37,696 nt of DNA, from NCBI GenBank assembly GCA_004144865.1, contig SEAY01000087.1, positions 1 through 37,696 of the forward strand, read 5' to 3'. A program made the position numbers and the translations under genes. The notes under the pieces were generated by a model, which was given only the letters and a program-made list of their open reading frames with translations, was not told where the DNA came from and searched no databases. Shown here piece after piece: positions 102 to 20,714 of this stretch (its first letter is position 1; every line of letters begins with the position of its first letter). The stretch is from Comamonadaceae bacterium (GTDB lineage: Bacteria; Pseudomonadota; Gammaproteobacteria; Burkholderiales; Burkholderiaceae_C).

Positions 102-467
102 TCAATGTTCGCCCTTGGTTCGCAGCAGCCCGGCCAGCCGGTTGCCTTGCTTCTGCGGCCCGCCGATCGGGAACAGCTCGTGCAGGGCATGGTTGCTGCC
201 GCCCTGGGCGCCCCAGCGCTGCGTGAAGTGGCGCACCATCACGCGCACCTGCGCCTGCACGCCATGCTCCTGGTAGTACGCGCGCAGGAAGCGGATCACC
301 TCCCAGTGTTCGGGCGTGAGCACCAGTCCCTCCTGCAGCGCGAGCGCCCGCGCGAAGTCTTCGGACCAGTCGCGCAGGTCGCGCAGGTAGCCCTCGGAAT
401 CGGTGGCGATGTCGCGCTCGCCCACGCGCACCGTGCGCTGCAAGCCGGGTTGGAGGCGCGCGTTCAT
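102..467 (-). CDS. DsrC/TusE-superfamily protein lacking both redox cysteines
   Basis: A 121-residue DsrC/TusE-fold protein. The core is well conserved (DSEGYLRDL near 23-31, the HWEVIRFLRAYY helix near 54-65, HELFPIGGPQKQ near 96-107). In canonical DsrC the C-terminal arm carries two cysteines that form the trisulfide; here the equivalent positions are Asn109 and Glu120 (the tail ends TKGEH). It therefore cannot act as the sulfur-carrying DsrC. Cys-less members are called RspA-type in the DsrC literature and are thought to be regulatory or protein-binding. The start ATG overlaps the dsrN stop as ATGA, so it is translationally coupled to dsrN and sits before dsrR. The A. vinosum operon has no gene here. 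Function unknown. Confidence 0.88.
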   Translation of the reverse strand: MNARLQPGLQRTVRVGERDIATDSEGYLRDLRDWSEDFARALALQEGLVLTPEHWEVIRFLRAYYQEHGVQAQVRVMVRHFTQRWGAQGGSNHALHELFPIGGPQKQGNRLAGLLRTKGEH

Positions 468-8503: not shown

Positions 8504-8836
8504 TCAGACGCAGCCGGTCGGCTTGGGCAGCCCGGCGATCTTGCAGGCCTGCTTGGCCGGTCCGTAGGGGAACAGCTCGTACAGGTACTTGCTGTTGCCC
8601 TTGTCGGGGCCGAGCTGCTTGCCGATGGCCTTGGTCAGCACGCGCACCGCCGGCGCGATCTGGTATTCGTTGTAGTAGTCGCGCAGGAAGTTCACGACCT
8701 CCCAGTGGCTGGCCGTCATGTCCACGTTCTCGGTCTTCGCGATCAGGTTCGCGAGGTCCTCGTTCCATTCGGACAGGTTGACGAGGTAGCCCTCCTCGTC
8801 GGTTTCGTAGGTGGTGCCGTTGATCTCGATGCCCAT
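8504..8836 (-). CDS. dsrC: DsrC, sulfur-carrier protein with both redox cysteines
   Basis: A 110-residue protein that is canonical throughout. It has TDEEGYLVNLSEWNEDLA near the N-terminus, the SHWEVVNFLRDYYNEY helix, and a flexible C-terminal arm, GPAKQACKIAGLPKPTGCV, with Cys98 and Cys109. These are the two cysteines that carry sulfane sulfur and form the DsrC trisulfide. Known role: accepts sulfur from DsrEFH and TusA, is the substrate and product partner of DsrAB, and is recycled by DsrMKJOP. It is the only one of the three DsrC-fold proteins in this window able to do that chemistry. AGGAG-type ribosome binding sequence precedes the ATG. Confidence 0.97.
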   Translation of the reverse strand: MGIEINGTTYETDEEGYLVNLSEWNEDLANLIAKTENVDMTASHWEVVNFLRDYYNEYQIAPAVRVLTKAIGKQLGPDKGNSKYLYELFPYGPAKQACKIAGLPKPTGCV

Positions 8837-9525: not shown

Positions 9526-9778
9526 TCAGTCTCCGAACGTCACGAGGCGATCCGACTTGATGCCTGCGTCGACCAGCTGGCCCAAGCCCGAGATGCGGAA
9601 GCCGGGCGCCAGCACCTCGTCCTTGATGCCGCGGCGCAGCGCCGCGGCCACGCACACCACCAGGTCCACCTGGTGGTCCGCATGCAGCTTCGACCACCGG
9701 TCGACGATGTGCCGGTCGTCTTGCGGCGGCTCGGTGAGCTTCGTCGCGTTGTAGACGCCGTCGTGGGGAAAACTTCAT
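9526..9778 (-). pseudogene. dsrE: dsrE, internally deleted and frameshifted as read
   Basis: The C-terminal 79 residues are clear DsrE: HDGVYNATKLTEPPQDDRH, then the active-site cysteine in DLVVCVAAALRRG, then GFRISGLGQLVDAG and RLVTFGD at the stop (9526-9528). Upstream, the DsrE start ATGAAGTTT at 9778 is present, but it runs into HDGVY in another frame after only 13 bases. DsrE normally has about 40 residues before HDGV, so roughly 105 bases are missing near 9765. A further 13-14 residues seem absent between GIKDE and LAPGF, in frame. As read, no functional DsrE is made. DsrE carries the sulfur-binding cysteine of DsrEFH, so loss would be serious; an assembly or sequencing error is a likely explanation. 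Confidence 0.85.
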
Positions 9779-9796
9779 GGTCTGTCCCACAAGGTC

Positions 9797-10748
9797 TCAG
9801 AAGCGGATGTGCGCCGAGGCGTTGAGGTTGGCGCGCGAGCCGCGCCAGTCGTCGATCAGGTACTTGGTGAAGGGCAGGTCGCACTTCTCGAAGAAGCGCG
9901 GCCAGCCGATGCGCTCGACCCAGTCGGACAGGCGTTCCCAGGACCGCGCGTCTTCCTTGTAGGTGTAGAGGATCTTCTTCACCATGGCCGACACCTCCGG
10001 CCAGCGCGGCGGGTTGTTCGGCAGGCCCGAGGCCACCATCTTCATGAAGGTGGGCTTGCCGCGGGCGTTGGAGTTCTTGCCGCCCACCCAGATCGCGAGC
10101 TTGGAATGCTCGGGATCGTTGATCTGCATCGGCGGGCACGGCGGGTAGCAGGCGCCGCAGCAGATGCACTTCTTCTCGTCCACTGGTGTGCTGCACGATG
10201 ATGGCGATGTCGGCCTGGCCGCCGCAATTGATCTCGCAGCACGACGTCGACAGGTGCACCCGGTTGGGCATCTCCTCGCGGATGAACTCGGTATAGAGCT
10301 CGTCCATCAGCGCCTTCACCGCGCCCGAGGCATCGGTGCCGGGAATGTCGCAGTGCAGCCAGCCCTGCGTGTGCGCGATCATCGACACCGAGTTGCCGGT
10401 GCCGCCCACGGGGAACCCGCTTTCGGTCAGCGCGCTGACCAGCGGCGCGACCTTGTTCGGGTCGCTCACCATGAACTCGATGTTGGAGCGGATGGTGAAG
10501 CGCACGTGGCCGTCGGCGTAGGTGTCGGCGATGTCGCACAGCTTGCGGATGGTGTGCACGTCCATCTGCCGCTGGGTGCCGGCGCGCACGCTCCACACCT
10601 CGTCGCCGGTGTGGGAGACGTGGTGCAGCACGCCCGGGCGCGGCCGGTCGTGGTACTTCCAGTTGCCGTAGTTCTTCACCAGCGTGGGGTGCAGGAACGG
10701 GCGGTTGTCGGGGCAGCCGCTCTCGATGGGGGTGCGGTGCTGTGCCAT
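9797..10748 (-). pseudogene. dsrB: dsrB, sulfite reductase beta subunit, internally deleted and frameshifted as read
   Basis: Codons 1-188 (10748 to 10185) are excellent DsrB, ending with the cluster-ligand region STSCCEINCGGQADIAI and then IVQHT. From 10183 to 9797 the reading continues one base out of phase as VDEKKCICCGACYPPCP, the ferredoxin domain, ending NASAHIRF. Known DsrB has roughly 40 residues between these points, including a conserved cysteine-proline segment (VARCP in homologues). About 120 bases are therefore missing at 10183/10184. The gene totals 952 bases, not a multiple of three. DsrB carries catalytic sirohaem with DsrA. The dsrA stop is one base before this start. All flanking dsr genes but dsrE look intact, so an assembly deletion is suspected. 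Confidence 0.9.
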
Positions 10749-10749
10749 G

Positions 10750-12042
10750 TCAGGCCGCCTTCTTCGCGTTGATGCGCGCGACTTCCTCGTCCCAGCCGTC
10801 GGTGCGGACGTAGGGATTGGTGCGCGGGGTGGAAACCATGTGGGCGTCGATCTCCACGCCCACGCCCTCGAGGAAGTTCACCAGGCCGATGCGCTCGATC
10901 ATCTCGCCGGTGCGCTCGTGCTCCAGCGCGTTCTCGGCGAAGAAATCGATCACCCGCTGGCCGAGGTCGACCAGCGCCTCGTAGTCCTCGTCGTTCTTCA
11001 GCGGCAGGAACGGCACCACCACCGTTCCCATCAGGTCGCCGATCTTCAGCGTGCGCTTGCCGCCCACCAGGATGGTGGCGCCGGTGTCGGTGCCGTGCGC
11101 CAGCGCGCCGGTCATCACGTTGATGCAGTGCATGCAGCGCACGCAGTCGCCGTTGTCGATCTCCAGCGCGTGCGTTTCGTTCACCCGCACGCTGGAGATC
11201 TTCGGCCCGGTGCGCACGTCCTTGACTTCCTTGAGCATGATCGCCTTCGTCGGGCAGCGGGTCACGACGTCGTTGACCAGCTCGTTCATGCCGTGCTTGG
11301 CGAACCACTTGCGCGCCATCTCCTCGTCGGTGCGGATGTTGTCGCGCCAGGTGCCGATCACGGCCATGTCGGCGCGCTGGATCGAGTTCATGCAATCGTT
11401 CGGGCAGCCCGAGAACTTGAACTTGAACTTGTAGGGCAGCGCCGGCCGGTGGATGTCGTCGGTGAAGGTGTTGATCACCGTGCGGTGGGCCCGCGCCTCG
11501 TCGTAGCAGCTCTGTTCGCAGCGTGCCGCGCCGACGCAGCTCATGGAGGTGCGCACCGCCGGGCCCGCGCCGCCGAGGTCGAAGCCCAGTTCGTTCAGCT
11601 CGTCGAAGGCGTCCTGCACCTTGTCGCTCTTGGCGCCCTGGAACATGATGTCGCCCGACTGGCCGTGGAAGGCGATCAGGCCGGAGCCGTGCCGCTCCCA
11701 GATGTCGCACATCTTGCGCAGCACGTCGGAGTTGTAGTGCATGCCGGGCGGCGGCTGCACGCGCAGGGTGTGGAACTCCGCCGCATCCGGGAAGACCGGC
11801 TTGTCGTTCTCGTCCTTCAGCTCGGTGAAGCGCGGGATCACGCCGCCGCCGTAGCCGAACACGCCGACGGTGCCGCCCTTCCAGTACCCTTTCTTGGTGC
11901 GGTAGGAGGTTTCGAGCGTGCCCAGCACGTCGTTGACGTAGTCCTTCTCGCGCGCCAGCCGCTTGAGCCCCGTGACGAAACTGGGCCACGGTCCGGACTC
12001 GAGCTCGTCGAGCATCGGCGTTTCGTGCATCTTCCTGGCCAT
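10750..12042 (-). CDS. dsrA: DsrA, reverse-type dissimilatory sulfite reductase alpha subunit
   Basis: A 430-residue, full-length DsrA. The sirohaem-[4Fe-4S] ligands are present as Cx5C (C169 and C175 in SMSCVGAARCEQSCYD) and Cx3C (C213 and C217 in SGCPNDC). The inserted ferredoxin domain has C263 (TRCPTKA) and CVRCMHCINVM (300-310). KRTLKIGDLMGTVVVPF is also typical. Known role: with DsrB, six-electron oxidation of DsrC-bound or reduced sulfur to sulfite in the cytoplasm. The start at 12042 is supported by CAGGAG about 8 bases upstream. It is the first gene of the operon and diverges from the plus-strand cluster at 12229. The accompanying dsrEFH and dsrL indicate the oxidative type. Confidence 0.96.
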   Translation of the reverse strand: MARKMHETPMLDELESGPWPSFVTGLKRLAREKDYVNDVLGTLETSYRTKKGYWKGGTVGVFGYGGGVIPRFTELKDENDKPVFPDAAEFHTLRVQPPPGMHYNSDVLRKMCDIWERHGSGLIAFHGQSGDIMFQGAKSDKVQDAFDELNELGFDLGGAGPAVRTSMSCVGAARCEQSCYDEARAHRTVINTFTDDIHRPALPYKFKFKFSGCPNDCMNSIQRADMAVIGTWRDNIRTDEEMARKWFAKHGMNELVNDVVTRCPTKAIMLKEVKDVRTGPKISSVRVNETHALEIDNGDCVRCMHCINVMTGALAHGTDTGATILVGGKRTLKIGDLMGTVVVPFLPLKNDEDYEALVDLGQRVIDFFAENALEHERTGEMIERIGLVNFLEGVGVEIDAHMVSTPRTNPYVRTDGWDEEVARINAKKAA

Positions 12043-12228
12043 GTGCTTGTCTCCTGCGGAGGTGCGTCCGCTGGGGTGAATACTCGGCGCGCGGCGGCCG
12101 GCGCGCCATCCCTCCGAGCGGCAGGCAGCCATTACCCGGATGGCGTACCCGCCGCTCACCCGCCGCGGGTATGGACGCCCGGCCAGGGCGGCGCGCTCAA
12201 TGCGGGCTACGTTCCGCCATCCCCTGCC
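12043..12228. promoter_or_regulatory. Divergent intergenic region between dsrA and the plus-strand accessory operon
   Basis: This 186-base region must hold the promoters of both divergent operons. On the minus strand, GGTAATGG (plus positions 12129-12136) lies about 87 bases upstream of the dsrA ATG. An inverted repeat, ACCCGC-G-GCGGGT, lies 34 bases further upstream of it (plus positions about 12158-12170). The same pair, TACCCGC followed 32 bases later by GGTAATGG, occurs 83 bases upstream of tusA. I see no convincing -35/-10 pair for either side. A regulatory role is inference from the repeated arrangement. Confidence 0.5.
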
Positions 12229-12444
12229 ATGACGCGCCTGAAGTCCCTCTCGAAACTCCGTGTCCCCTTGGGCGGGCAGGAAATCGAACTGCAGCAGGTC
12301 GACTTCGAGGCCGGCGGCATGAGCCTGCTGCGCACGCGCATCCGCGAGCAGGCGCGCTTCACCATCTTCGACATCGACCCCGCGACGGCGCGCGCCTGGG
12401 GCGAGGCGCTGCTGCAGTGGGCGCAGGCGCAGCCGGCGGAGTGA
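12229..12444 (+). CDS. Small conserved protein, first gene of the dsr-divergent operon
   Basis: A 71-residue protein beginning MTRLKSLSKLRVPLGGQEIE and containing EAGGMSLLRTRIREQ and FDIDPATARAWGEALL. There are no cysteines, membrane segments or signal peptide, so it should be cytoplasmic. I recognise the pattern as a small family seen beside dsr genes in sulfur oxidisers but know of no function. The ATG at 12229 is the first in frame after the divergent promoter region. The next gene starts 9 bases after its stop, indicating one transcript with the Cas6-like gene. Confidence 0.75.
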   Translation: MTRLKSLSKLRVPLGGQEIELQQVDFEAGGMSLLRTRIREQARFTIFDIDPATARAWGEALLQWAQAQPAE

Positions 12445-12453
12445 GGGGGCGCG

Positions 12454-13056
12454 ATGGAAGCCGGCATGATCGACGTCGCCTTCGCGCTGGAAGGCCATGC
12501 CGTGCCGCAGGAGCACCGCTACGCGCTGGCCGAGGCGCTGCTGGGCACGCTGCCCTGGCTGGCCGACGAGCCGGACGCCGGGGTGCACCGGCTGAAGCTC
12601 GTGGCCGGCGGCGGCGGCGAGTCCCTGCTGTCGCCGCGCACGCGGCTCACGCTGCGCGTGCCGCGCGGCCGCGGCGACGCCGCCTGCGCATTGGCCGGCA
12701 CCGAGTTGCGGCTGGGCCCGCACCGGCTGCGCGCAGGCCGGCCGCAGCAGCGCGAACTGCTGCCGCACGGCACGCTCTACGCCCACCTCGTGGCCGCGGA
12801 GGATGCCGACGAAGCGGCCTTCGTCGAGCGCATGCGCGCCGAGCTCGCCGCGCTGGGGGTGGCCGCGCAGCCGGTCTGCGGCCGCTGGCAATCCACCGAG
12901 GCGGGGCGCCTGGTCGGCTGCAGCCTGATGCTTTCGGGGCTGGACGCCGCGCAATCGCTGCGGGTGCTGCAGCAGGGGTTGGGCGGCCACCGCCGGCTCG
13001 GCTGCGGCCTGTTCGTCCCGCACAAGTCGGCGGCGGCGGTGGGCGCGCCGGCCTGA
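12454..13056 (+). CDS. Cas6/Cmx6-like RAMP-superfamily protein, orphan
   Basis: A 200-residue protein resembling the Cas6/Cmx6 family of type I-MYXAN CRISPR systems. The tell-tale is the glycine-rich loop near the C-terminus, QGLGGHRRLGCGLFVPHKS (about 174-192), after GCSLMLSGLDAAQSLRVL; RLTLRVPRGR near 64-73 fits the first ferredoxin-like fold. His45 (GVHRLKL) could be a catalytic-type residue, but this is uncertain. Known relatives cleave CRISPR repeats. There is no CRISPR array, cas1, cas2, cas3 or interference gene in the window, and the gene sits in an operon beside dsrA. A non-CRISPR RNA-binding or RNA-processing role is possible but unproven. GAGGGGG precedes the ATG; MIDVAF at 12466 is an alternative start. 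Confidence 0.8.
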   Translation: MEAGMIDVAFALEGHAVPQEHRYALAEALLGTLPWLADEPDAGVHRLKLVAGGGGESLLSPRTRLTLRVPRGRGDAACALAGTELRLGPHRLRAGRPQQRELLPHGTLYAHLVAAEDADEAAFVERMRAELAALGVAAQPVCGRWQSTEAGRLVGCSLMLSGLDAAQSLRVLQQGLGGHRRLGCGLFVPHKSAAAVGAPA

Positions 13057-13089
13057 TCACGTTCCAACCCCACAAGGAGACCAGACCCC

Positions 13090-13419
13090 ATGGCCTACGT
13101 CGTCAACGGCGAAGAACTCGAAACCGACGCACAGGGATTCCTGCTGGCGGCGGACTACCGCGACGAGGTGGTCCACGCGATCGCGCAGGCCGAAGGCATC
13201 ACCCTGACCGAACCCCACTGGACGGTGGTGCGCTACCTGCGCGACGAATACCGCGAACACGGCCACACGCCCAACTTCCGCAACATGCTCAAGGGCCTCG
13301 GCGACGTGCTGGCCGGCTGCGACAGCAAGGCGCTCTACGACCTGTTCCCGGTCGGCCCGGCCAAGCAGGGCGCCAAGGTCGCCGGCCTGCCGCAGCCCTT
13401 GGGCAAGGGCGGCTACTGA
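13090..13419 (+). CDS. DsrC/TusE-like protein without the C-terminal redox cysteines
   Basis: A 109-residue DsrC-fold protein: NGEELETDAQGFLL at the N-terminus, EPHWTVVRYLRDEYREHG in the DNA-binding-like helix region, and a C-terminal arm GPAKQGAKVAGLPQPLGKGGY, here quoted as GPAKQGAKVAGLP (89-101) and ending GKGGY. The two DsrC cysteines are replaced by Ala95 and Lys106. One cysteine lies elsewhere, in VLAGCDSKAL. It cannot form the DsrC trisulfide. It fits the Cys-less, RspA-type group, presumed regulatory. AAGGAGA lies about 10 bases before the ATG. It follows the Cas6-like gene and precedes a helical protein by 7 bases. Confidence 0.92.
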   Translation: MAYVVNGEELETDAQGFLLAADYRDEVVHAIAQAEGITLTEPHWTVVRYLRDEYREHGHTPNFRNMLKGLGDVLAGCDSKALYDLFPVGPAKQGAKVAGLPQPLGKGGY

Positions 13420-13426
13420 GCACCGC

Positions 13427-14077
13427 ATGGCCCTGCCCACCCCGCCCGCGCCGCGCCTGAAGACGCACTGGTTCCGTCACGGCAACAGCCGCGGCGCGGA
13501 CCAGCAGGCGAGCGCCGCGGCCTTCATCGTGTGGCGCATCGCGCGCCATGCGCTGGACCGCACCCGCCACGCGGGCTTCGACGTCGACATCGGCGCGCCC
13601 TACTTCCGCTTCCTGCGCGAGATGCTGGCCTTCCTGGTGGCCATCGCCGACCGCATCGCGCACGCTCGGCTGGCGCCGCCGCAGCGCGTGGAGTTCACCG
13701 GCGCCATGGTGCACCATCTCGCGCGCATCCTGCAGGACAGCGAGGACGACCTGGTCGGACCGGCGCCTGCGGGCGCACCTTCGAACGGCGACAGCTTCAT
13801 CGACCTGGTGAACGAGCTCGCCACGCATTACGGCGAATTCGGCGCCGACCCCAAGCTGCCCGCCGTGCCGGGCGGCTTCGAACCCGACTTCGCATTCCTG
13901 CGCTACCTCGGCCACCGGCTGGAGGCCACGGTGCCACCCAAGGACCAGCGCTGGGTGCAGGACCAGACGATCGCCGTCGAGGCGCCGGAAGCCGTCGCGA
14001 TGCTGCAGCGCTCGCTGCGCGACCTGTTCGAACCGCCGGTGCGGGCACGCCGGAGTGCTGGCGTCAGCGGGGACTGA
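13427..14077 (+). CDS. Helical protein of unknown function in the dsr-divergent operon
   Basis: A 216-residue soluble protein that I do not recognise as a named family. It is rich in predicted helix (FIVWRIARHALDRTRHAG near 32-50, FRFLREMLAFLVAIADRIAHAR near 60-81, VHHLARILQDSEDDL). Notable conserved-looking motifs are WFRHGNSRGADQQAS at the N-terminus and FLRYLGHRLEATVP with WVQDQT in the second half. There are no cysteines, so it is not a metal-cluster protein. It starts 7 bases after the DsrC-like gene and ends 4 bases before the TauD-like gene, so it is part of the same transcript. A chaperone or partner role is possible but nothing in the sequence shows it. Confidence 0.78.
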   Translation: MALPTPPAPRLKTHWFRHGNSRGADQQASAAAFIVWRIARHALDRTRHAGFDVDIGAPYFRFLREMLAFLVAIADRIAHARLAPPQRVEFTGAMVHHLARILQDSEDDLVGPAPAGAPSNGDSFIDLVNELATHYGEFGADPKLPAVPGGFEPDFAFLRYLGHRLEATVPPKDQRWVQDQTIAVEAPEAVAMLQRSLRDLFEPPVRARRSAGVSGD

Positions 14078-14081
14078 AGCC

Positions 14082-14999
14082 ATGAGCGCGATGCCGTCCT
14101 CCCTTCCCGCCCTGGCCGGTCCGTTCGCGCCAGGCAACGAGGGCGCCTACCGCCGCTGGCGCGCCGCGAAGCTGGTGAACCGGCCGCGTTCCATCGAGGA
14201 ACTGGTGGTGCCGGTGGCGGATGCCGGCGCGTTGTCGCCGGCGGAGCGCAGCGCGCTGCTGCGCGCCATCGCGCGGGCCGGTTTCGCCATCTACCGTTCT
14301 GGGGTCGGCGCCGAGGACGGCACGCTGCCGCGCCGGCTGGGCGCGCAGCTGGGCCTGCGCCGGCTCGACGCGAACTGGCTGGCCGGCGAGGACGGCGTGT
14401 CGCGCATCGCGGTCTCCGGCGGCTGCGACGACCACGCCGGCTTCATCCCCTACACCGACCGCGCGATCGGCTGGCACACCGACGGCTACTACCATCCGCA
14501 GCAGCGGCGCATCCGCGGCATGGTGCTGCACTGCGTGCGGCCGGCGCGCGAGGGCGGCGAGAACCGCCTGCTCGATCCGGAGCTGGCCTACATCGCGGTG
14601 CGCGACCGCTCGGCTCTGCTCGCGCAGGCGCTGATGCAGCCCGACGCGATGACCATCCCCGAGCGCACCGACGAAAGCGGCGTCGGGCGCGCGGCGCAGT
14701 CCGGCCCGGTGTTCTCGGTCGACGAGGACGGCTGCCTGCACATGCGCTACACGGCGCGCACCCGCTCCATCGCCTGGAAGGACGATGCGGCCACGCGCCA
14801 GGCCGCCGCCCTGCTGCAGGACGTGCTGGCCACCTCGCCGGACGTCTGGCGCATCCGCACCGAAGCGGGCATGGGCCTGGTGGGCCAGAACGTGCTGCAC
14901 GACCGCAGCGCCTTCATCGACGACCCGCGGCAGCCGCGGCTGGTGCTGCGGGCGCGCTTCCTCGACCGCCCCGCGGAGGGCCCATGTCGCAATGGGTGA
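14082..14999 (+). CDS. TauD/TfdA-family Fe(II)/2-oxoglutarate dioxygenase-like protein
   Basis: A 305-residue protein with a TauD-like jelly-roll signature. The iron-binding HxD is His132 and Asp134 in IGWHTDGYYHP, and the distal histidine is His273 in GQNVLHDRSAFID. RLVLRARFLDRP at the C-terminus could supply the 2-oxoglutarate arginine. Relatives oxidise taurine, alkyl sulfates, carnitine precursors and many other substrates, so the substrate cannot be read from the sequence. The context, an operon with DsrC-like and ferredoxin-reductase proteins beside dsr, suggests a sulfur-linked or protein-modifying task, but this is inference. The ATG at 14082 is four bases after the previous stop; its 3' end overlaps the next gene by 16 bases. 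Confidence 0.83.
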   Translation: MSAMPSSLPALAGPFAPGNEGAYRRWRAAKLVNRPRSIEELVVPVADAGALSPAERSALLRAIARAGFAIYRSGVGAEDGTLPRRLGAQLGLRRLDANWLAGEDGVSRIAVSGGCDDHAGFIPYTDRAIGWHTDGYYHPQQRRIRGMVLHCVRPAREGGENRLLDPELAYIAVRDRSALLAQALMQPDAMTIPERTDESGVGRAAQSGPVFSVDEDGCLHMRYTARTRSIAWKDDAATRQAAALLQDVLATSPDVWRIRTEAGMGLVGQNVLHDRSAFIDDPRQPRLVLRARFLDRPAEGPCRNG

Positions 15000-16459
15000 G
15001 CATCTGGCGCGCGGCGCAACTGGCTGGCGTGCCGCGCGCGGTGCTGCAGCAGCAAGTGCGCGCCGGCGAGATCGAGGAGAACGACGGCATGGTGTCCACG
15101 GCATCGCTGCTGGCGCTGTACCCGCAGCTGCAGCTGGAAGCCGCGGGGCTGGCGGAGCGGGTGGCGCGCATCCGCGACGAGTCCTTCGGCAAGCGGGTGC
15201 GCGAACGGCTTCTGCCCAGCCAGGAAGTGCTGGCGCAGCGCCTGTTCCAGCAAAGCCAGGAACTGGCCGACGTGCAGCGGCACCTGCAGCGCTACCACGC
15301 GCTGGTGGTGGACCTGCGCGAACAGATCCGGCAGAAGAACCGCGAGGTGGGCGGCGATGACCCGCGCCTGGCGGCCCTGGAACGCGCGCTGGCCGGCGGG
15401 CTGGCCCGCGTGCTGGCGACGGAACCGGTGGATGCCCTGCACGTGATGGACGACATGCTGAAGGTGATGTCGGCGCAGGTGACGCTGCGCCCGAGCGGCC
15501 ACCAGTTCACCGTCGAGGGCCGCGACAGCCTGCTGCAGGCCGGCCTGCGCGCCGGCCTGAACCTCAACTACGGCTGCGGCAACGGGAGCTGCGGCATGTG
15601 CAAGGTGCGCGTCACCGACGGCCAGGTGGCGCGCTGCGCGGCCAGCGACTACCCGCTGTCGGAAACCGAGAAGGCCCAGGGCTACGTGCTGGCCTGCGCG
15701 CACACCGCGGCCAGCAGCGAGCTCACGCTGGAGACGCTGGAGGCCGCCGGCCCCGCCGACATCCCCGAGCAGCAGATCGCCGTCACGGTACGCGCGCTGC
15801 GCCCGCTTGCGCCCGATACGCTCCTGTTGCACGTGCAGACCCCGCGCACGCACCGCCTGCGCTTCCTGGCCGGCCAGTCCGTCACGCTGGCGGCCGCCGA
15901 CGGCGACGGCGCCCAGGCGCGGCATCCGGTGGCGAGCTGTCCGTGCGACGACCGCAACCTGCATTTCTTCATCCCGCGCGACCCCGGGGATCCGCTGGCG
16001 GTGCGACTGTTCGCGGGCGGCGTGCGCCCCGGCGATGCGCTCACGCTGTGGGGGCCGTACGGCAGCTTCACGCTGGCGCAGGCCACGCAGCCGCTGGTGT
16101 TCGTCGCCTGCGACGTCGGCTTCGCGCCGGTCAAGAGCCTGGTCGAGCACGCACTGTCGCTCGACGCCGCGCCCTCGCTCACGCTGTTCTGGCTGGCCAC
16201 GCGCGGCGACGGGCATTTCCTGGCCAACCAGTGCCGGGCGTGGTCGGAGGCGCTCGATCCCTTCGAGTACAGCCTCTTCACCGATACCGACCCCGCGGCC
16301 GGCGCGCTGCAGGTCGCCCGCGCGATGCGCGCCGACCTGTTCGAGGTCGACTGCGCCTTCTACCTCGCCGGCCCCGAGGCTTTCGTGGCGACGGTCACCG
16401 CGCAACTCGCGCAGGCCGGAGTGCCGGCCGCGCAGATCCACCAGGAGGTGTTGCCATGA
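14984..16459 (+). CDS. HTH, coiled-coil, [2Fe-2S] ferredoxin and FAD/NAD reductase fusion
   Basis: A 491-residue multidomain protein. Residues 5-47 look like a MerR/excisionase-type helix-turn-helix (SIWRAAQLAGVPRAVLQQQV). Residues 50-125 are heptad-rich and probably coiled coil. Residues 165-253 are a plant-type ferredoxin with C198, C203, C206 and C238 (Cx4Cx2C and a distal cysteine). Residues 262-491 are a ferredoxin-NADP reductase-like module, with RHPVAS near 313-318 in place of RxYS, GPYGSF at 357-362, and VFVACDVGFAPVKSLVEH at the nucleotide-binding site. Phenol hydroxylase or CDP-glucoseen reductases share the last two modules but not the N-terminal ones. It could supply electrons to the upstream oxygenase or sense redox state while bound to DNA. 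Both ideas are inference. Confidence 0.87.
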   Translation: MSQWVSIWRAAQLAGVPRAVLQQQVRAGEIEENDGMVSTASLLALYPQLQLEAAGLAERVARIRDESFGKRVRERLLPSQEVLAQRLFQQSQELADVQRHLQRYHALVVDLREQIRQKNREVGGDDPRLAALERALAGGLARVLATEPVDALHVMDDMLKVMSAQVTLRPSGHQFTVEGRDSLLQAGLRAGLNLNYGCGNGSCGMCKVRVTDGQVARCAASDYPLSETEKAQGYVLACAHTAASSELTLETLEAAGPADIPEQQIAVTVRALRPLAPDTLLLHVQTPRTHRLRFLAGQSVTLAAADGDGAQARHPVASCPCDDRNLHFFIPRDPGDPLAVRLFAGGVRPGDALTLWGPYGSFTLAQATQPLVFVACDVGFAPVKSLVEHALSLDAAPSLTLFWLATRGDGHFLANQCRAWSEALDPFEYSLFTDTDPAAGALQVARAMRADLFEVDCAFYLAGPEAFVATVTAQLAQAGVPAAQIHQEVLP

Positions 16460-16833
16460 GCTGCCAAGGCGCGAGCTGCCAGTGCCAGGGCGCCCCCGCG
16501 CCGCAGGAGGATCCCGGCTGCAGCGGCGGCGAATCCTTCGCGCTGCGCGTGCTGGGCGAGGACATGCTGCCCGAGTTCCGCGAGGGAGACATCATCATCG
16601 TGGAGCCCGATGGCGCGCTCAAGGACGGCTGCTTCGTGCTGGCCTGTCCCGGCGGCGACTGGATGCTGCGCCAGCTGGTCAAGTGCGGCGCCGGCTGGTC
16701 GCTGCGCGTGCTCAACCCCGCCGCCTGCAGCACCGTGCCCGAGCTCGAGGTGGCCGACCTGTCCGTCGTGCGCGGGCTGGTGATCCAGAAAGCCGTGCCG
16801 GGACGCCGCAAACTCACCCGGAGCTATCTCTGA
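16456..16833 (+). CDS. LexA/S24-like protein lacking the catalytic dyad
   Basis: A 125-residue protein with a LexA/UmuD-type C-terminal fold: ALRVLGEDMLPEFREGDIIIVEP (start near 29), then LKDGCFVLACPGGDWMLRQL and a closing strand. In active S24 peptidases the motif is GxSM and a lysine follows in VKR; here these are Asp36 (GEDM) and Arg72 (LRQL). Self-cleavage therefore seems impossible. The first 22 residues are cysteine-rich (C3, C8, C10, C22), and C59, C64 and C77 follow in the domain. A redox- or metal-sensing role can be imagined, but no DNA-binding domain is present; the upstream fusion protein carries one. The ATG overlaps the upstream stop as ATGA. Confidence 0.8.
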   Translation: MSCQGASCQCQGAPAPQEDPGCSGGESFALRVLGEDMLPEFREGDIIIVEPDGALKDGCFVLACPGGDWMLRQLVKCGAGWSLRVLNPAACSTVPELEVADLSVVRGLVIQKAVPGRRKLTRSYL

Positions 16834-17054
16834 TGCCCTACTTCCTCTATCGCGTGCAGCCGTTCGCGCAGCTGCAGCCGCTCGGCGAGTACGCCTCCTT
16901 CCCCGAAGCCTCGCGCGAGGCCAAGGCCGTGCGCGCGGCCGCTCCGGCGCAGGAGAGGCGGCGCGTGCGCGTGATCTTCGCCGACAACGCGCTGGCCGCC
17001 GAGGACCTGCTGCTGCAGGTGCGCGAACCGCAGCCGGGCGGCGACGACGACTGA
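16833..17054 (+). CDS. Small protein of unknown function
   Basis: A 73-residue protein, MPYFLYRVQPFAQLQPL at the start, FPEASREAKAVRAA in the middle and VIFADNALAAEDLLLQVREP near the end. The pattern resembles small conserved proteins in sulfur-oxidiser gene clusters, but I cannot name a family. There are no cysteines or membrane segments. Its start shares a base with the stop of the S24-like gene (TGATG), so the two are translationally coupled. Confidence 0.75.
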   Translation: MPYFLYRVQPFAQLQPLGEYASFPEASREAKAVRAAAPAQERRRVRVIFADNALAAEDLLLQVREPQPGGDDD

Positions 17055-17063
17055 CGCACGGCG

Positions 17064-17489
17064 ATGAGCTCTGCGCCGCCCGCCGGCTGTTGCGAAGCAG
17101 CGCACGACTGCGTCTTCGCCAAGGCCGTGCTGGCACGATCGGCCGCCTGCGAGCTGGCGCGGCGCCACCTGGTGGGCGAGCGCGAGCTCCTGGCCTGCGG
17201 CTCGCCGATCGCGCGCATGAACTGCGCCACCCTCGCCGCCCTGCTGCACGAACGCGCCCGCTTCGCGCTGCGGCTGCCCGCGCCGGGGCGGCCGCTGATG
17301 CACATGCAGGCATTGCGCCTGCAATGCGGCGGCCTGGACGCGCTGCGTGGCTGGTTGCGGGCCGGCGAGGCCGACGTGCACCTCATGGTGCGGCAGGCGC
17401 AGCAGGCACGCGGCAGCCTCGCCGAGCTGCCGTGGGACCAGCTGGTGCCCTCGCTGGTCGCCTGGCAGCCGGCGCGCCGCCGCCGCTGA
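17064..17489 (+). CDS. Cysteine-containing protein of unknown function, last gene of the operon
   Basis: A 141-residue protein with several cysteines: CC at 9-10, C16, C29, C45, C54 and C88. The motif MNCATLAALLHERARFALRLP and the following PGRPLMHMQALRLQCGG look conserved-type but match no family I can name. The cysteines are not spaced as a standard ferredoxin or zinc finger. It is 9 bases after the previous stop and closes the nine-gene plus-strand operon. It meets the convergent HPP gene one base later, with no room for a terminator between them. Confidence 0.75.
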   Translation: MSSAPPAGCCEAAHDCVFAKAVLARSAACELARRHLVGERELLACGSPIARMNCATLAALLHERARFALRLPAPGRPLMHMQALRLQCGGLDALRGWLRAGEADVHLMVRQAQQARGSLAELPWDQLVPSLVAWQPARRRR

Positions 17490-19869: not shown

Positions 19870-20337
19870 TCAGATGAAAAGACAGACGTCGGTGTCGCCG
19901 GCGAACTTCAGGAAGGTGGCGGCGCCGCCGTACTCGATGCCTTCGATGAACTCGTCGCGCTTGAACTCGAACAGGTCGACGGTCATCTGGCAGGCGATGA
20001 AGCCGACCTCGGCTTCCTGGCAGGCCGTGCGCAGTTCCTCGAGTGAGGCCACGCCCTTCTTCTTCATCTTGGACTTCATCATGCTGGTGGCCATCGCCTC
20101 CATGCCGGGGAGCATGGAGACCACCACCGGCATGGGCATGGGCATCGGCATCGCCGGATTCGCCAGCGGGCTGATGGCAATGTCGTCGAGGTTGCGGCGC
20201 AGCAGCTGCAGGCCGTAGAAGGTGAAGAAGATCTTGACGTCCCAGCCGAGGGAAGCGGCGGTGGAAGCGAGGATCAGCGGCGGGTACGCCATGTCGAGCG
20301 CACCCTTGGTGGCGATGATCGCCATCTTCTTGGCCAT
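19870..20337 (-). CDS. dsrE2: DsrE2, DsrE/DsrF-like sulfurtransferase-type protein
   Basis: A 155-residue protein of the DsrE2 subfamily: KMAIIATKGALDMAYPPLILAST at the N-terminus, then FFTFYGLQLL, a methionine- and proline-rich segment (NPAMPMPMPMP near 61-71 and further methionines to about 92), and EVGFIACQMTVDLF with a conserved-type cysteine. DsrE2 proteins are membrane-associated partners of TusA and rhodanese in sulfane sulfur transfer to Dsr or sHdr pathways. The gene is 4 bases after the tusA stop. The Met-Pro run is typical of the subfamily and not a sequencing fault. Confidence 0.93.
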   Translation of the reverse strand: MAKKMAIIATKGALDMAYPPLILASTAASLGWDVKIFFTFYGLQLLRRNLDDIAISPLANPAMPMPMPMPVVVSMLPGMEAMATSMMKSKMKKKGVASLEELRTACQEAEVGFIACQMTVDLFEFKRDEFIEGIEYGGAATFLKFAGDTDVCLFI

Positions 20338-20341
20338 GGCG

Positions 20342-20569
20342 TCAGCCCTTGCGCAGGAAGAACACGTAGTGCCGGCTTTCCTCCGCGGTCGCCAGCAGCG
20401 GATTGCCGGTCTCCTCGGCGAACGCAGCCATGTCGCAGACCGAGCCGGGATCGGTGGCGATCACCCGCAGCACCTGGCCGGACGTCATGCCGGACAGCGC
20501 CTTCTTGGTCTTGACGATGGGCATCGGGCAGCTCAGGCCCGAGGCGTCGAATTCCTTGTCGAAATGCAT
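20342..20569 (-). CDS. tusA: TusA, sulfur carrier protein
   Basis: A 75-residue SirA/TusA protein with the family signature DASGLSCPMPIVKTKKAL, where Cys14 is the persulfide-bearing residue of the CPxP motif. VIATDPGSVCDMAAF follows, as in most family members. Known role in Dsr-type sulfur oxidisers: it carries sulfane sulfur from rhodanese and DsrE2 to DsrEFH. GAGGAG upstream of the ATG supports this start; a longer in-frame reading upstream has no such site. It is the first gene of the tusA-dsrE2-yeeE-HPP group. Confidence 0.95.
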   Translation of the reverse strand: MHFDKEFDASGLSCPMPIVKTKKALSGMTSGQVLRVIATDPGSVCDMAAFAEETGNPLLATAEESRHYVFFLRKG

Positions 20570-20714
20570 GGAGGTCTCCTCGCGGGGCCGCGCCGAAACC
20601 ACTGCCGGCGTGCCTCAGGGGACCAATGAAACGGCAACGGACGAGGCGCGTCCATTACCGTGAAGGGGAGTCGGGCATCCCCCATGCGGGTAGTGCGGGC
20701 ATCCGCCACGCACC
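20570..20714 (-). promoter_or_regulatory. Upstream region of the tusA operon with a motif shared with the dsrA promoter region
   Basis: On the minus strand, GGTAATGG (plus positions 20652-20659) lies 83 bases upstream of the tusA ATG, and TACCCGC lies 32 bases further upstream. The dsrA upstream region has the same two elements in the same order, at 87 and 34 bases. This suggests common regulation of two sulfur operons. It is a pattern seen by eye in only two sites, and no -35/-10 pair is certain. Confidence 0.4.

Follow-up and report, generated by a model that had tools for sequence, protein, structure and literature searches.

What role does an operon combining an orphan Cas6-like protein, a DsrC-like protein and a 2-oxoglutarate (2OG) oxygenase play beside the dsr genes? 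The question is raised by contig SEAY01000087.1 of a Comamonadaceae bacterium (assembly GCA_004144865.1; 243 contigs, 93% complete), the 37,696 nt of which were analyzed and are referred to here as the window. Nine open reading frames (genes 1 to 9), all on the plus strand, span positions 12229-17489 and diverge from the dsr operon. Comparison with other genomes shows that this operon is almost certainly accessory to the oxidative Dsr pathway, and that it is a variant of the known rDsr-associated gene cluster (rDAGC).

The nine-gene operon is real. The gaps between consecutive genes are 9, 33, 7, 4, −16, −4, −1 and 9 bp, third-position GC across the nine frames is 0.91-0.94, and gene 1 shares a gap of 186 bp with dsrA (10750..12042, minus strand, start at 12042; TIGR02064, 512 bits), the first gene of the divergent dsr operon; the tight plus-strand array and the shared dsrA gap described in the first-pass annotation, made from the sequence alone, are thus confirmed. 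The arrangement exceeds chance because the identical gene order recurs in scores of genomes. Window proteins were assigned to families by Pfam and NCBIfam profile scans, and defence systems were sought with PADLOC.

Genes 1 to 5 are divergent from dsrA in most genomes read and track its presence. Among 61 relatives, gene 4 was found in 7 and dsrA in 6, all 6 inside the 7; the seventh genome, G017, is 69% complete and has the gene on a 3.4-kb contig that ends ~300 bp before gene 1. The relatives read keep the order 1-2-3-4-5, except that no gene 5 was found in L012 and gene 2 lies in two frames in L009; genes 6 to 9 follow genes 1 to 5 in L008 and L009. In a sample of 260 genomes of the order, with dsrA counted at E ≤ 1e-40 (54 genomes, 52 above the curated cut-off), the DUF6967 family, to which gene 1 belongs, was found in 46, all of them within the 54, and the distance between the DUF6967 and dsrA profile matches was 195-552 bp in 45 genomes and 4.7 kb in one. 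Eight order genomes have dsrA without DUF6967; among the six inspected (G484, G516, G574, G579, G606 and G491, not G546 or G601), genes 2, 3 and 5 lie beside dsrA in five. Thirteen further regions from 12 order genomes contain cluster genes in all cases except L174, a second dsrA copy; L179 is without genes 2, 3 and 5, L185 without genes 2 and 3, and L175 without gene 5.

The same association was observed in a class sample of 322 genomes, in which the threshold of E ≤ 1e-40, chosen to keep fragments, gave 108 genomes with dsrA (103 above the curated cut-off). Gene 4 was found in 107 genomes: 101 have both genes, 7 only dsrA, 6 only gene 4, and 208 neither, so that gene 4 is present in 101 of 108 dsrA genomes compared to 6 of 214 others (Fisher p = 9e-67, uncorrected for kinship). 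Among the genomes with dsrA only, genes 5, 2 and 3 are present both in G236, where the contig ends shortly afterwards, and in G228, where the remaining 8 kb contain no gene 4. G258 carries gene 5 at ~2 kb from a fragment of dsrA, a 5.8-kb contig of G091 holds genes 1, 2 and 5, and in G204 and G254 the contig stops at dsrA. In all six genomes with gene 4 only, the gene occurs with DUF6866, and in five with a second oxygenase too; in one of the six (G177), the contig breaks off within gene 5, short of the place expected for dsrA. DUF6967 was found in 7 of the 322 class genomes, adjoining dsrA in four, with dsrA on a separate contig in one and without dsrA in two; in the last three, gene 1 alone was found and its neighbours look unrelated. 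DUF6866 was not found in the genome of the window, and the control of that search likewise gave no match.

Pairwise distances for genes 1 to 5 correlate with those for DsrA (Spearman 0.78, 0.77, 0.61, 0.83 and 0.72, respectively; 0.78 for DsrK), a co-divergence as expected for shared inheritance. A link to Dsr, which the first-pass annotation had put forward, is borne out by these co-occurrences as well as by the operator-like element described below; the redox-responsive regulator that it suggested is a conjecture. Neither of the observations that it had named as speaking against such a link, a cluster missing from other dsr genomes or frequent where sulfur oxidation genes are lacking, was made, and the association with oxidative Dsr appears as firm as comparison of sequences can make it.

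The layout of the cluster was read in 80 named loci, the best 80 of at least 499 confirmed matches to the gene-3 alignment, which were picked by gene 3 and therefore show order, not frequency. Gene 3 is present in 80, gene 2 in 78, gene 4 in 77, gene 1 in 75, dsrA in 73 and gene 5 in 72, and, in the downstream part, gene 6 in 32, gene 7 in 30, gene 8 in 29 and gene 9 in 24; in all seven loci without dsrA, the contig ends on the dsrA side. The organisms include Rubrivivax, Hydrogenophaga, Rhodoferax, Gallionella and Ferriphaselus. Genes 3 and 4 are 250-1500 bp apart in 34 loci, where reading of the gap identified a two-domain (tandem) TusA-like protein in 31, a two-domain rhodanese in 2 and another protein in 1; ten further loci (nine order loci and L268) have a match to rhodanese in the same interval. 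The presence of a TusA or rhodanese gene within the cluster of sister clades is new here; the window cluster itself has neither between genes 3 and 4. In L111 and L120, gene 3 is separated from, and inverted relative to, the remaining cluster genes.

In gammaproteobacteria, 20 regions around gene 4 were read, of which 15 include dsrA; in 11 of these 15, gene 5 is next to dsrA, and in 11 genes 5, 2 and 3 are divergent from it. Of 16 regions (these 15 and L275), 9 show the fullest layout: moving away from dsrA, gene 5 is followed by genes 2 and 3, a 67-aa protein, an oxygenase of the PKHD type, a 107-aa protein, another 2OG oxygenase, DUF6866 and, last, gene 4, with some of these genes on the opposite strand. 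L266 and L276 are without gene 5, L272 is without genes 5 and 3, and L268, L269 and L277 are without some middle genes; L269 and L277 come from 1.1-Mb genomes that retain genes 5, 2, 3 and 4. Gene 4 lies on the far side of dsr in L273, for which the region covered excludes the divergent side; L270, L271, L274 and L278 have gene 4 and no dsrA within the fetched stretch, and L275 holds genes 5, 2 and 3 as a block where its contig ends. Together with DUF6866, three distinct 2-oxoglutarate oxygenases (dsrQ, one of the PKHD type and another) accompany dsr in L259-L265, L267 and L275.

Between dsrA and gene 1, at 12132..12172, lies an operator-like element of two palindromes, ACCC-N4/5-GGGT, 22-25 bp apart with ≤1 mismatch each. 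It was found in 58 of 78 dsrA-gene 1 gaps compared to 0.1 in shuffled gaps; the motif was derived from the same gaps, so that shuffling controls for composition alone, and loci that are related do not count as independent. In a separate check, the region upstream of tusA-dsrE2 has the element in 24 of 41 loci, compared to 0.55 in shuffled sequences and 3.8 in pieces drawn at random from these loci. When 3.14 Mb of fetched DNA was scanned with ≤1 mismatch overall, the element lay <900 bp from the dsrA start in 68 of 189 loci having such a start; the 26 other rows belong to 10 loci, of which 3 have long or cut dsrA gaps and 7 have the element before tusA-dsrE2. At ≤2 mismatches, it is present in 59 of 73 named betaproteobacterial regions, in 1 of 5 further order regions without gene 1 and in 7 of the 13 others. 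With a looser pattern (≤3 mismatches), 12132-12172 is the only site in the whole genome of the window; a diverged copy before the window's tusA and dsrE2 (20652..20694, minus strand), missed by the strict window scan, was seen by eye. These two genes lie at 19870-20569, with the tusA start at 20569 and dsrE2 at 19870-20337. In L096 (~16618-17196), the copy before tusA-dsrE2 faces a soxY-like gene on its other side.

We consider the double-palindrome element, a candidate DNA site, to be new here; a literature search aimed at the operator found none described, with most subscription papers outside its coverage, and the novelty of the operator is not proven. Judged by eye, RNA hairpins were thought less likely than DNA sites, because the element is inverted relative to gene 1 between Gallionella-type and Burkholderia-type loci, and because the second palindrome before tusA often breaks a stem pair. 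The occurrence of the element both in the shared gap and before tusA-dsrE2 suggests that, in the beta clades, one regulator probably controls dsr, the operon and the sulfur-carrier genes. We rate a regulon shared by dsr and the operon as very probable, and such sharing likely extends over a large part of the beta clades.

The first-pass annotation knew of no described system with this combination of genes, a statement that does not stand. In PMC4643136, the rDAGC is located upstream of dsr, and other work is cited as having placed it in betaproteobacteria and as proposing that it may take part in regulating dsr. The window cluster has the same position, upstream of and divergent from dsr, as in betaproteobacterial sulfur/iron oxidisers, and Ferriphaselus sp. 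R-1, whose genome is among those in PMC4643136, is our L122, with genes 1 to 5 and a tandem TusA beside dsrA. In contrast, the window cluster lacks a TusA/rhodanese gene and adds genes 6 to 9, which were not found in L122. A tauD-like gene divergent from dsr is named dsrQ, with a speculated role in sulfonate use, in PMC7596348; gene 5 belongs to the same family and is likewise divergent from dsr, but is fifth in the window and does not adjoin dsrA. DsrQ and DsrU are given as being of unknown function in PMC6018796; one of genes 2 to 4 may already carry the name DsrU.

Gene 1 (12229..12444, plus strand; 71 aa) belongs to DUF6967 (PF22295, 106.5 bits), a family of unknown function, which leaves three of the four proteins that the first-pass annotation listed without a family; for these, genes 4, 8 and 9, no convincing family was found. 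Its predicted fold of four strands and one helix (AF2 pLDDT 92.5) agrees in topology with a Pur-alpha repeat. Pur-alpha repeats dominate the top of the Foldseek list at a non-significant E of 0.3-1 (for 5fgo_A, TM 0.68/0.77 at E 0.92), with EagT6 and others scoring alike; the Pur-alpha-like fold, new here, is weakly suggested by the model.

Gene 2 (12454..13056, plus strand) is, as the first-pass annotation had it, an orphan Cas6-like protein (PF09559, 177 bits; TIGR02807, 141.9 bits against a cut-off of 98.85). Its closest solved relative is the Cas6 of a type I-B CRISPR system (PDB 8fcj_B, E 1.2e-29 in a profile search), and it shares with Cas6/Cmx6 the sequence family and the Gly-rich loop, which is kept in 82-83 of 83 copies; R62, R68 and E120 are kept in all 83. 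It differs from Cas6/Cmx6 in having no array or other cas genes alongside and in the lack of conservation of the N-terminal His that we take to be a possible catalytic residue. Another family of Cas6 proteins, PF01881, had no match in the window's genome, and a search for gene 2 on plasmids gave no match. In L010 (G056) and in G496, genes 1 and 2 form a natural DUF6967-Cas6 fusion in one open frame, with DUF6967 matches in frames of 322 and 324 aa.

Gene 3 (13090..13419, plus strand; PF04358, 109 bits) is a DsrC family protein with the tail GKGGY. It had been called Cys-less; both redox cysteines are indeed missing, whereas one other Cys (C77) is present. In the alignment, 86 of 88 rows end in KGGY, the remaining 2 being ordinary DsrC from L051 and L052; both redox cysteines are missing in 78 of the 86 copies, and the KGGY tail is present in all cluster copies printed (16 gamma and 5 beta). 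In both features, gene 3 resembles the DsrC homologues without redox cysteines that we take to be those named RspA, reportedly by Venceslau 2014; regulation by such homologues is a proposal only.

Gene 4 (13427..14077, plus strand), the companion of dsrA in the class sample, has a predicted structure of six helices (AF2 pLDDT 89.7), no convincing family in the Pfam and NCBIfam scans, and nothing at E ≤ 1 in a sequence search of the PDB. The protein is nameless, so no literature search could target it, and its novelty is not proven. Gene 5 (14082..14999, plus strand), dsrQ in the naming of PMC7596348, is a TauD-type Fe(II)/2-oxoglutarate oxygenase (PF02668, 57.5 bits), in agreement with the first-pass annotation; the HxD...H metal triad and the 2OG-binding Arg (H132, D134, H273 and R290) are intact in 74 of 74 copies, and H(T/S)DGY is kept in all 20 copies printed from gamma and beta regions. 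A PDB sequence search with gene 5 gave nothing at E ≤ 0.01.

Genes 6 to 9, which the first-pass annotation took as one set with the others, are a separable part of the operon: in 12 further dsr genomes inspected, genes 8 and 9 stand apart from the divergent cluster. Gene 9 was found in 44 of the 260 order genomes, all 44 dsrA-positive. In the 12 gene-9 contexts fetched, all outside the divergent cluster, gene 8 is always present, accompanied by gene 7 in four and by gene 6 in three; in L248, gene 9 lies some 8 kb beyond dsrL. A MoxR-like ATPase and a further large conserved protein, both identified by reading the sequence, lie near genes 8 and 9 in L250, L253 and L257 (also L249 and L251), and DUF6866 adjoins gene 9 in L249, L250, L251 and L253.

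Gene 6 (14984..16459, plus strand) is a fusion of a 2Fe-2S ferredoxin (Fer2, 58.9 bits) with a flavin-type reductase, preceded by an N-terminal extension; the reductase match is the weaker one (BenC, 125 bits against an equivalog cut-off of 430; NAD_binding_1 and DmmA-like_N under their cut-offs), and the helix-turn-helix that the first-pass annotation added to the fusion was not detected by Pfam and rests on reading. Cysteines C198, C203, C206 and C238 are present in 35 of 35 copies. Residues 317-325, ASCPCDDRN, are kept in 34-35 of 35 relatives; such a two-Cys stretch is unusual for this type of reductase. Gene 7 (16456..16833, plus strand; PF00717 Peptidase_S24, 44.5 bits) has an S24-like fold without a conserved catalytic pair, and an invariant Cys22. 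The Ser site is Asp in the window, and Ser in 18 and Asp in 11 of 33 copies; the Lys site, at its presumed position, is Phe, Leu or Met in all 33. These counts qualify the description of this protein as dead; a protease or SOS-type role was rejected since the Ser-Lys pair is not conserved. Gene 8 (16833..17054, plus strand), a small conserved protein, is full-length in 31 of 88 searched loci and is found next to gene 9 in all 12 gene-9 contexts. Gene 9 (17064..17489, plus strand) has five conserved cysteines (C16, C29, C45 and C54 in 26 of 26 copies, C88 in 25 of 26).

On balance, we favour the explanation that the operon represents the rDAGC as it occurs in Burkholderiaceae, an accessory operon that serves oxidative Dsr and is switched on with it; the fusion frame of genes 1 and 2 in L010 counts in favour of this explanation. 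Its products would perform no main catalytic step. The Cas6-like gene 2 and the Pur-alpha-like gene 1 could form a nucleic-acid-binding pair, and gene 3 could act as a stand-in for DsrC that binds DsrC partners or DNA without carrying sulfur; together with gene 4, genes 1 to 3 may adjust the expression of DsrAB or the flow of sulfur into it. DsrQ would add an oxygen- and iron-dependent step and, in the clade of the window, genes 6 to 9 would add an electron-transfer and cysteine-rich part, the TusA/rhodanese of sister clades being missing. This nucleic-acid-binding and DsrC-mimic mechanism is tentative, and we regard it as doubtful. Bolder still, and rather improbable, is a version in which a Cas6-type protein domesticated from CRISPR immunity forms with genes 1, 3 and 4 an RNA-guided or RNA-sensing control point that splits TusA/DsrC sulfur between DsrAB and tRNA thiolation in most Dsr sulfur-oxidising gammaproteobacteria (in the GTDB sense).

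Several observations weigh against the explanation that we favour. No cluster gene was found on the two contigs read in G491, one of which ends in dsrA, or near either of the two dsrA copies of G357; parts are missing in the dsr genomes G437 (genes 2, 3 and 5) and G556 (genes 2 and 3), and two class genomes have DUF6967 without dsrA. The element is carried by only 8 of the 18 further order regions and is missing in 45 of 45 gammaproteobacterial upstream regions (0 of 29 and 0 of 16, at ≤2 mismatches), so that it can account for no more than a part of the beta clades. The match of gene 1 to Pur-alpha is not significant, with proteins such as EagT6 scoring similarly, and gene 4 has no fold match (Foldseek best E 0.36). 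The position of the N-terminal His of gene 2 is His in 35 of 83 copies and Tyr in 41, so that RNA cleavage cannot be assumed; 8 of 86 gene-3 copies retain Cys at the first redox position; and a conserved oxygenase is a poor fit for a pure regulator.

A rival explanation is a sulfur-trafficking module, in which persulfide sulfur is handed to DsrEFH/DsrC or kept away from tRNA thiolation by TusA/rhodanese carriers, with the DsrC-like protein as a docking part and the Cas6-like protein binding tRNA. Tandem TusA or rhodanese genes within the cluster of sister clades and the element shared with tusA-dsrE2 speak for it, as does the action of TusA, TusBCD and TusE, relatives of the Dsr carriers, in tRNA thiolation (PMC3397948); however, the window's own cluster has no carrier gene and most DsrC-like copies lack both redox cysteines, and we put the chance of such a module at about one in four. 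Organosulfonate breakdown, with DsrQ freeing sulfite from sulfonates and the other genes in support, is the idea reported in PMC7596348, and the TauD family and intact metal ligands of gene 5 agree with it. Yet the NCBIfam model that gene 5 matches best, trimethyllysine dioxygenase, is hit far under its cut-off, and genes 1 to 4 are left unexplained, which makes this reading unlikely.

That the operon is a CRISPR or defence remnant around an orphan Cas6 is suggested by the match of gene 2 above the curated Cas6/Cmx6 cut-off. However, gene 2 is the sole PADLOC match in the window; cas1 was not found in the 93% complete genome of the window and is present in 15 of 41 genomes bearing gene 2; and of 294 sequences scanned for CRISPR repeats, 2 were flagged, both with equal 81- or 84-bp spacing and read as ordinary tandem repeats. 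On these results the remnant reading was rejected; with gene 2 also conserved beside dsrA, its chance is close to nil.

Elsewhere in the window, a canonical dsrC with both redox cysteines present in the alignment lies at 8504..8836 (minus strand), and a third DsrC-family protein, with zero cysteines, at ~102-467 (minus strand), at the end of the dsr operon past dsrN. Compared to L008, dsrB is ~120 nt shorter (at 10184-10185) and dsrE ~124 nt shorter (at ~9771-9799), the remaining stretch being 83-94% identical; the near-equal size of the two missing pieces suggests an assembly fault, although genuine loss is also possible.

Returning to the operon as an accessory of oxidative Dsr, that pathway is well studied, yet gene 4, present in 101 of the 108 dsrA genomes of the class sample, has neither function nor family in the libraries searched. 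Since gene 2 passes the cut-off of a CRISPR model, automatic annotation would give dsrA a neighbour labelled as a CRISPR protein. The operator-like element, being shared, offers a handle toward a regulator of the dsr genes in betaproteobacteria.

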